NCBI GenBank assembly: GCA_005778355.1 | Contig: SXON01000216.1 | Coordinates: 1 to 40,260 of the forward strand | Direction of reading: 5' to 3' | Source of the DNA: Pseudomonadota bacterium | GTDB lineage: Bacteria > Myxococcota_A > UBA796 > SXON01 | DNA length: 40,260 nt | Part shown: positions 26,303-27,862 of the stretch, piece after piece | How the letters are laid out: the number at the start of each line of letters is the position of its first letter | Position numbering within the stretch: the stretch's first letter is position 1 | The notes under the pieces: model-generated | What the model saw: only the letters and a program-made list of their open reading frames with translations | Database searches by the model: none | Told to the model about the DNA's origin: nothing | Made by a program: the position numbers and the translations under genes

Positions 26303-27379
26303 CTACTCGCGGGCGAGCGCGATGGCCTGGACGAGGTCGGTCGAGCCCACCAGGGTGATGCGCTCCACCTTCCCGGCGAGCTCCGCGAGCTGCTCGAGCT
26401 CCTTGAGTCGCATGAGAACGGGGTTCTCCTGCAAGAGCTTGGCGGTGTTGAGCAGCTGGCGGGTAGACGCCGTTTCCTCGCGGCGCTTGATCGACAGGGC
26501 CTCGGCCTCCTTGCGCGCGAGGGTGACCCGGTTGAACAGGTCCTTCACCTCGCCCGCGAGGATCACGTCGCGCACCACCGCCGTCTCGACCGCGAGTCCC
26601 ACGGCGGGGAGCTTCTTCGCCACGAGGGCGAGCAACTCTGCCGAGAGGGCGTCGCGGTCGGTCACCAGCGTGTCGAGCTCGCGCCCGGCCACCACCTCGC
26701 GCAGCGCGGCGTGGACCGCGGCGTGCAGGAGGTTGAGGTGGTCGGACTCGAAGACGGCACGAAGGGGATCGACAAAGCGGTACGACACGCCGGGCTTCAC
26801 GCGGACGGGCACCTGGTCGCGAGTGAGCAGGTCCTGGGGCGCGAGCTCCAGCGTGTGGAGCGCGAGCGGGACGATGCGCACCGCGTAGGGCGAGCCGTGG
26901 AAAACCCGGTAGCGTCCGGGCGCGAGCAAGCGGACGGGCTGCGTGAGCCGGGTGAGCACGGCGGCCTGCCCCTCGCCCACGGCGAACTCGGTGACACCGG
27001 CCGTGGCCGGCAACACATCGTTGGCCGCGAGGGGAACGGGCTCGTCGCGCAGGTCGGCACGGACCAGCTCGAGCTGGCCGGCCCCGTCGAAGTGACGGTA
27101 CCGGCCGGGGCCGAGCAGGCCCGCGAAGACGCCGCTCACGTAGGCGAGCACGCGCTCGTTGGGCGCCACGAGGATGTCAGAAACGCCCTCGATGCCCTCG
27201 GGCAGCTCGTCGCCTGCGGTCACCACCTGGGGGGCGGCGCTCAGCTTGTACACCACGCGCTCCACCATGGCGAAGCCGGTGTAGACGGTGTGACGGCCGG
27301 GGCCGAACAGGCCGGCGAAGGCGCCGTCGCGGAAGAGCGCGACACGCTGGATGCGGGGGACGGTAACGATGGTGAACAT
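26303..27379 (-). CDS. SPFH/Band 7 (slipin-like) protein
   Basis: A 358-residue protein. The N-terminus carries two similar beta-rich segments (VALFRDGAFAGLFGPGRHTVY and VLAYVSGVFAGLLGPGRYRHF, about 13-110). The SPFH domain follows (about 115-290, with PVRVKPGVSYRFVDPL). A charged coiled-coil-like tail (about 290-350) contains ARKEAEALSIKRREETAS. There is no clear N-terminal membrane helix, so attachment would be peripheral. SPFH proteins form membrane-associated rings. The ATG at 27379 has AGGAG seven bases upstream. The open frame to 27643 is a shadow across the tRNA-like sequence. Confidence 0.8.
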   Translation of the reverse strand: MFTIVTVPRIQRVALFRDGAFAGLFGPGRHTVYTGFAMVERVVYKLSAAPQVVTAGDELPEGIEGVSDILVAPNERVLAYVSGVFAGLLGPGRYRHFDGAGQLELVRADLRDEPVPLAANDVLPATAGVTEFAVGEGQAAVLTRLTQPVRLLAPGRYRVFHGSPYAVRIVPLALHTLELAPQDLLTRDQVPVRVKPGVSYRFVDPLRAVFESDHLNLLHAAVHAALREVVAGRELDTLVTDRDALSAELLALVAKKLPAVGLAVETAVVRDVILAGEVKDLFNRVTLARKEAEALSIKRREETASTRQLLNTAKLLQENPVLMRLKELEQLAELAGKVERITLVGSTDLVQAIALARE

Positions 27380-27419: not shown

Positions 27420-27582
27420 GGGACGTGGCCCGCGCCTGCCTGCGGCCGCGGTCGGGACACGAGGGTCCCCGCGGACAAGCGACACGACGCGTGGATTGCG
27501 CCGGTCCCGAGGGACAAGCGCGCACCTGGCCCCGAAGCGGGGTTCGGCCTTGGGTTTGGATAACTGGGGTTCAGCCAGTGAA

Positions 27583-27655
27583 GGCAGTCCAGCGCTCTAC
27601 CATTGAGCTTCGCCCGCGAGCGGACGGTGGGAATCGAACCCACGACCTATGGATC
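27583..27655 (-). ncRNA. Apparent circularly permuted tRNA-Gly(GCC)-like sequence
   Basis: On the minus strand, a tRNA 3' half (27655-27619) comes first: GA, TCCAT, AGGTC, T-arm GTGGG-TTCGATT-CCCAC, acceptor CGTCCGC and T73. One C follows (27618), then a tRNA 5' half (27617-27583): acceptor GCGGGCG, AA, D-arm GCTC-AATGGTA-GAGC, G, anticodon stem CTGGA, then CT and anticodon GCC. The two acceptor strands pair in all seven positions with one G-U. The anticodon stem pairs in four of five (C27-T43 mismatched). The 5' half closely resembles tRNA-Gly. No conventional 5' half lies upstream of the 3' half and no 3' half follows the 5' half. Alternatives are two truncated tandem tRNA genes or an assembly artefact. 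Confidence 0.4.
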
Positions 27656-27862
27656 CAACGCGACACCCATCCTCGGCGAACAACACGCGGGACAGCAAAC
27701 GGGAAAACCCAGCCGCCGCTCTTCGCCGCGCCCGGGTTGGCGCGTGCCGAGGGATGAGTAGGCGCGAGGGGCGGGGGCGTCAAGGGGGGCCTCCAAGGTC
27801 AGCCCGATAGCGGTCCGGTAGGGGCGCGAAGCCAGAGCGGGTCGCGCCCGCGGGGGCACGAC

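Follow-up and report, generated by a model that had tools for sequence, protein, structure and literature searches.

A 40,260-nucleotide contig (the window), one of 252 in a 6.6-Mb assembly that is 85% complete, carries a tRNA-like element whose 3' half precedes its 5' half. This permuted order is real, conserved, and bacterial. We consider it fairly likely that the element is a circularly permuted tRNA mimic, one module of a structured slipin-leader RNA that serves the slipin in a response to tRNA damage. The order of the parts, the acceptor pairing, the conservation, the RNA core ahead of the element, and the slipin linkage are direct observations. The gene concerned encodes an SPFH/Band-7 (slipin-type) protein of 358 amino acids on the minus strand (26303..27379, start codon at 27379; Pfam Band_7 E value, 1.8e-23), and the element lies in its leader, with the slipin start about 200 bases downstream.

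Read along the minus strand, positions 27643-27594 contain the T-arm, the 3' acceptor strand, two bases, the 5' acceptor strand, and the D-arm, in that order. The T-arm (27627..27643) has 5 bp and the 7-base loop TTCGATT. The 3' acceptor strand (27620..27626) stands 5' of its own partner (27611..27617), with which it forms 7 of 7 pairs, one of them G-U; relatives show exchanged pairs here. The D-arm (27594..27608) has 4 bp and the loop AATGGTA. A putative anticodon stem joins the two halves: its 5' side lies in 27583..27592, a stretch that includes GCC at 27585-27583, and its 3' side (27649..27653) forms 4 of 5 pairs with 27592-27588. The preliminary description, which took the locus for a tRNA-Gly in inverted order, was thus right about the order of the halves, the acceptor pairing, and the inter-half stem followed by GCC. 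It was also right that a very short spacer separates the acceptor strands, but this spacer is the two bases TC (27618..27619) rather than a single C.

ARAGORN finds no tRNA or tmRNA in the window, and Rfam at gathering scores gives no match; the element is accordingly not called as an ordinary tRNA by either program. Free folding of the window sequence recovers the T-arm, the acceptor stem (6 pairs, 4-base loop), and the D-arm, but the folding energy of the element does not surpass that of shuffles (z of -0.03, and of -0.50 in the congener described below). Two other structures were considered and rejected. A helix closing the whole module failed the cognate-versus-swapped test, with 3393 of 5000 swaps equally good, and a group I intron or permuted intron-exon layout had no such Rfam match.

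A search of 93 genomes, among them the window's own, gave a match spanning the junction in a single congener, G010 (86%, query bases 10-63), which carries the same order. All 7 acceptor pairs are kept in G010 although the strands differ, reflecting compensating changes, and the junction there reads GAGA. In both genomes the T-arm lies about 260 to 275 bases ahead of a same-strand Band-7 start codon, and the two slipins are 93% identical. The inter-half stem of G010 likewise has 4 of 5 pairs, one of them exchanged (T-A to C-G), with GCC kept, a comparison of two sequences only.

To survey slipin loci more widely, we used a profile of 12 slipin proteins, which found matches in 43 of the 377 genomes of the host phylum. 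Weak slipin matches in G004, G152, and G300 and second matches in G040 and G059 were dropped before counting. We examined 44 loci, 43 of them distinct (Poly127 and G127 name a single contig, which is counted once among the distinct loci). Our descriptor called for a T-arm, acceptor strands with at least 6 of 7 pairs and at most 40 bases between them, and a D-arm with GG. It matched 25 of the 44 upstream regions, 21 of them at 7 of 7 pairs, and none of the 44 on the antisense strand; over 40 rounds of dinucleotide shuffling, matches averaged 0.375 per 44 regions and never exceeded 2. When T- and D-arms were chosen blind to the acceptor, 6 or 7 of the 7 pairs formed at 15 of 25 loci, and total cognate pairing exceeded that of all 10000 between-locus swaps. 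No full tRNA was called by ARAGORN over the permuted element at the slipin sites. On control loci, which were mostly picked for tRNA-like content and include two (L076 and L087) that themselves carry permuted elements, the descriptor gave 26 matches (12 at 7 of 7) over the two strands of 516 kb. The four of these matches that were checked are true tandem tRNAs.

Upstream of the distinct slipin genes, 24 of 43 loci have a permuted element, 10 have a tRNA-like element in standard order, and 9 have neither; the last figure is an upper bound, since the sequence available ahead of the gene in G013 is just 254 bases long and that in G271b and G136 is coding. Two further descriptor matches were set aside: in G036 the spacer is 58 bases long, and the weak match in G136 falls in coding sequence and depended on 30 bases of the protein match. 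A tree of the slipins (42 rows, leaving out G229, with 181 amino acids) requires the permuted label to change 9 times, and branches with good support force at least 5 of these changes. Three of the 10 standard-order relatives are 75 to 76 nucleotides long with Leu anticodons, which is too short for a real tRNA-Leu.

The rest of the window leader also contains conserved features. A possible promoter, TTGACG-17 bases-TACTCA (27755..27783, minus strand), was read by eye; its second hexamer is weak and a consensus scan does not call it, whereas TTGAC and the 17-base spacing are kept in G010. Between this promoter and the element lies a structured RNA core (27675..27727, minus strand) of the form P1 - GA - GCGG - hairpin - CCGC - P1', defined on an alignment of nine leaders (model R1) that left out L124, which aligned badly, and L119, which has a long insert. 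In the nine leaders, 87% of cells pair and 9 of 13 pairs are changed on both sides. Both-side changes occupy 17 cells, whereas shuffles give 5.9 and none of 500 reaches 17; slid versions score far lower, a control that leans in favor of the structure because it was drawn from the same sequences. Model R1 recovers all nine cores and two outside the model, in G059 (E value, 0.0019), where the core stands directly ahead of the permuted element, and in G047 (E value, 0.0064). It has no match in more distant slipin leaders, where similar motifs are seen by eye. Core matches away from slipin loci are weak and were rejected; the best two (G027 and G052) overlie, by eye, a coding-like open frame on the opposite strand. 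Closer to the gene, a conserved GC-rich hairpin with putative pairing (TGTCCGCGG...CCGCGGCCGC; 27438..27480, minus strand) precedes the slipin start. The pattern TGTCC(G/A)CGG occurs in 5 of 14 leaders scanned (the window, L116, L118, L124, and L125), and G013 has a stretch that looks similar by eye. Also by eye, a lone T-arm-like hairpin, GGTTCGAYTCC, stands 5' of the core in L117, L119, L122, L124, and L125, and in some cases the next strand could pair across the core in the manner of an acceptor stem.

The anticodon side is less clear-cut. In both the window and G010, GCC is preceded by T at position 33, and the inter-half stem with its retained GCC agrees with the earlier assignment of GCC as the anticodon. 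However, an anticodon-arm-like hairpin, ACTGG-CTGAACC-CCAGT (27563..27579, minus strand; 5 of 5 pairs), follows directly downstream and is kept in G010, with 7-base loops of CTGAACC and CTGATAC, respectively, so that GCC may not be the anticodon. At several other loci the 5' piece contains a full anticodon arm (anticodons include UUU, GUA, GAA, GUU, and UAA), and G361 has no T at position 33. We also rejoined the halves computationally in 704 joins per locus, without a control and at loci that had been selected by acceptor pairing. ARAGORN called a tRNA at 24 of 24 loci, in 8 to 527 joins each. Under the same conditions, 213 joins of the window halves were read as Phe(gaa) and 3 as Gly(gcc), and for the G010 halves 361 joins were read with an eight-base loop holding gccg and 14 as Gly(gcc). 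At the junction, NCCA comes first in 4 of the 24 permuted loci (Poly126, G305, G104, and G299), so that processing to tRNA ends is conceivable for some members of the family; in 2 of the 24 (G010 and G055) the acceptor is closed by GAGA.

A simpler account, named in the preliminary description, was that the locus arose by misassembly or is what remains of two tandem tRNA genes. Ordinary tandem pairs of same-type tRNAs do satisfy our descriptor, as the control loci show. Yet a second species assembly carries the identical order with compensating acceptor changes, which argues against misassembly. In addition, ARAGORN finds no full tRNA across the permuted sites, and the acceptor strands at many loci pair with their own partners rather than with partners taken from elsewhere (none of 10000 swaps is as good). 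Taken together, these observations contradict this explanation, to which we give next to no credence. A different possibility is that the element is a permuted gene of a working tRNA, two-piece or rejoined and here Gly(GCC), from which RNase P and 3' nucleases would cut the junction before CCA is added. The complete set of arms speaks for this, as do the T33, GCC, and 4-of-5 stem shared with G010 and the NCCA junctions of the four relatives. However, the window genome has 32 tRNA matches, and the 30 given as loci include one ordinary tRNA-Gly(GCC) and one tRNA-Gly(CCC). The check for an intact tRNA-Gly(GCC) elsewhere in the genome thus finds an ordinary gene. CCA is not encoded at the window junction, where archaeal permuted tRNA genes would have it; TC stands there instead. 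Anticodons vary among the relatives, some of which have standard order and one of which lacks T33, and what is conserved is the slipin linkage, not a tRNA identity. Because the genome has an ordinary tRNA-Gly(GCC) and the acceptor is closed by two bases or by GAGA, the element is probably not a working tRNA-Gly. The earlier identification as a tRNA-Gly that yields a two-piece tRNA is not supported by these results, and we regard a working tRNA of any such kind as unlikely.

The element might instead be a YrlA-type Y RNA, to which an Rsr (Ro60) protein binds. YrlA RNA is circularly permuted relative to tRNA (PMC11472068), and the Rfam YrlA model has full-length matches to the window (E value, 1.5e-6) and to G010 (E value, 1.2e-6). 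The window match reaches 37.2 bits, however, short of the gathering score of 69, and it has mismatches in the flanking stem. Neither the window genome (G000, 85% complete) nor G010 yielded a TROVE (Rsr) protein, and 4 of the 58 genomes searched have one. Of the seven best YrlA places in an order-wide search, four are ordinary tandem tRNA pairs by ARAGORN (L070, L071, L072, and L074), and therefore the match reflects permuted tRNA order and not kinship. Membership in the YrlA family is accordingly very unlikely. A tRNA-like RNA could also act in cis, controlling the slipin mRNA, for example through a tRNA-handling protein, without a separate RNA product. Consistent with this, the elements were found on the slipin's own strand, 5' of the gene, in upstream regions scanned on both strands, and a conserved motif stands just ahead of the slipin start codon. 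On the other hand, the T-arm lies 0.26 to 1.0 kb ahead of the protein match across loci (some matches start inside the protein), and the full tRNA likeness would seem to exceed what a simple leader needs. We keep a purely cis-acting leader as a lesser possibility and continue to favor a permuted tRNA mimic that serves the slipin.

Several known systems resemble this mimic in part. The permuted tRNA genes of algae and archaea give rise to working tRNAs via a bulge-helix-bulge splice site. The window element likewise has its 3' half ahead of its 5' half, with acceptor strands that pair, which is the arrangement described for those genes in PMC3978253; unlike them, it has a closed acceptor and sits within a leader. 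PMC3978253 also describes the permuted two-piece tmRNA of some bacteria, also a bacterial permuted tRNA-like gene, but ARAGORN calls no tmRNA in the window and the junction here is only two bases. YrlA Y RNA (Rfam RF02553; structure 6CU1) shares with the element a T-arm, a closed acceptor stem, and a D-arm in permuted order, and it is described as a permuted tRNA mimic in PMC11472068; its tRNA-like domain is also named in PMC7790460. The window element differs in lying below the Rfam cutoff, in having another core, in its slipin linkage, and in that no Rsr gene was found. Given the solved YrlA structure (PMC11472068), a bacterial permuted tRNA mimic is not new in itself. As far as our searches show, what is new is that slipin loci carry the permuted order and have switched repeatedly between it and the standard one. 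Burroughs and Aravind reportedly proposed, in 2016, a novel tRNA-like partner for SPFH/Band-7 proteins. The window has a tRNA-like element adjoining a Band-7 gene, as in that proposal, and distant slipins have repair neighbors in Citrobacter and Escherichia coli; the present loci are permuted in 24 of 43 cases and have varied anticodons. A literature search, thin on subscription papers, returned no report of slipin, SPFH, or Band-7 proteins with a tRNA-like RNA or a permuted tRNA.

By analogy, we read the RNA as built like YrlA Y RNA, minus Rsr, and serving a slipin RNA-repair system. In the proposed mechanism, the acceptor end of the module would be closed by its short loop, and the ends of the module would lie toward the anticodon or the variable loop, at its junction with the RNA core. 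The RNA could be cut from the leader or made along with it. The slipin would then bind the RNA, and the complex may act in the tRNA-damage response as a decoy, a sensor, or a scaffold for repair enzymes. Transcription, processing, slipin binding, and function of the RNA are all predictions here.

Distant slipins point to an RNA-repair context. Among these relatives, which are about 28% identical, the Citrobacter copy adjoins a nucleotidyltransferase gene and rtcR, which encodes an RNA-repair activator, and a distant E. coli slipin adjoins a gene of the RlaP RNA-repair family. No RNA-repair gene stands beside the window slipin among the window ORFs scanned, the RtcB gene of the window genome is on another contig, and RlaP was not found in the window genome or G010. 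Slipins and RtcB are weakly associated across genomes (RtcB in 10 of 13 with a slipin versus 35 of 73; one-sided P = 0.050, and P = 0.12 within the order). In Anabaena, according to PMC10272220, the slipin gene alr0740 and rtcB are up 42- and 77-fold in a TrcR-deletion mutant, and TrcR represses a stress-induced array of 26 tRNA genes. Some slipin genes in our survey also have ordinary tRNA gene arrays ending before them, with 11 genes called in G200, 11 in G223b, and 5 in G277, each array within at most 1.6 kb, which recall that Anabaena array; three tRNA genes are called ahead of slipin in each of G305 and G223a. A phage or plasmid origin of the window locus was considered and rejected: there was no DNA match in phages, the slipin had no match in phages or viral contigs, and its 10 plasmid matches are distant, all below 60% identity.

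Permuted elements also occur in a second setting. Two matches to the YrlA model (L087 in G061 and L076 in G059) are permuted tRNA-like elements located 3' of a DUF7873 gene (Pfam E values of 1.5e-92 in G061 and 6.8e-94 in G059). Each has 7 of 7 acceptor pairs, and ARAGORN calls no tRNA over either. We found 73 phage records with a DUF7873 protein and read three, from Arthrobacter phage Mimi (L212) and Gordonia phages Phendrix (L213) and Keelan (L214). All three have two permuted elements 3' of the DUF7873 gene, each with 7 of 7 acceptor pairs, and in all three the first element of the pair has ACCA in its junction. None of the elements in these records is covered by ARAGORN or by an annotated tRNA, although those of Keelan overlap a small annotated gene. 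The phage stretches also give three 6-of-7 matches, which we took, without a shuffled control, as chance or neighboring tRNAs. Permuted tRNA-like genes therefore occur outside slipin leaders as well. We suggest tentatively, with slightly more doubt than belief, that bacteria and phages carry widespread, hardly recognized circularly permuted tRNA-like genes. These would be RNA partners of at least two protein families, the slipins, with the RNA 5' of the gene, and DUF7873, with a permuted pair 3' of it, would imitate many tRNAs, and would perhaps serve as decoys or repair scaffolds upon tRNA attack.

These loci thus form a bacterial, partly phage-borne set of permuted tRNA-like genes that was found by order and pairing and was missed by ARAGORN where tested, and they link tRNA mimicry to slipins. 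We know of no earlier test of a slipin role in RNA repair. A related leader, that of the E. coli slipin, is present on 1624 of 5426 E. coli chromosomes, which makes the idea testable in a common organism. By eye, the E. coli leader has a T-arm followed by a 7-bp hairpin, equivalent to the upper half of a permuted tRNA without the D-arm, and the permuted-element descriptor has no match in it. The E. coli and Citrobacter slipin leaders (L178:4800-4870 and L177:4800-4870) each show, again by eye, a T-arm and an acceptor-like hairpin with the D-arm missing, resembling a reduced permuted element. A putative sigma-54 box precedes both reduced elements. In one E. coli strain, a zeta-toxin family gene (L190:6322-7248) is convergent to the slipin-RlaP pair.
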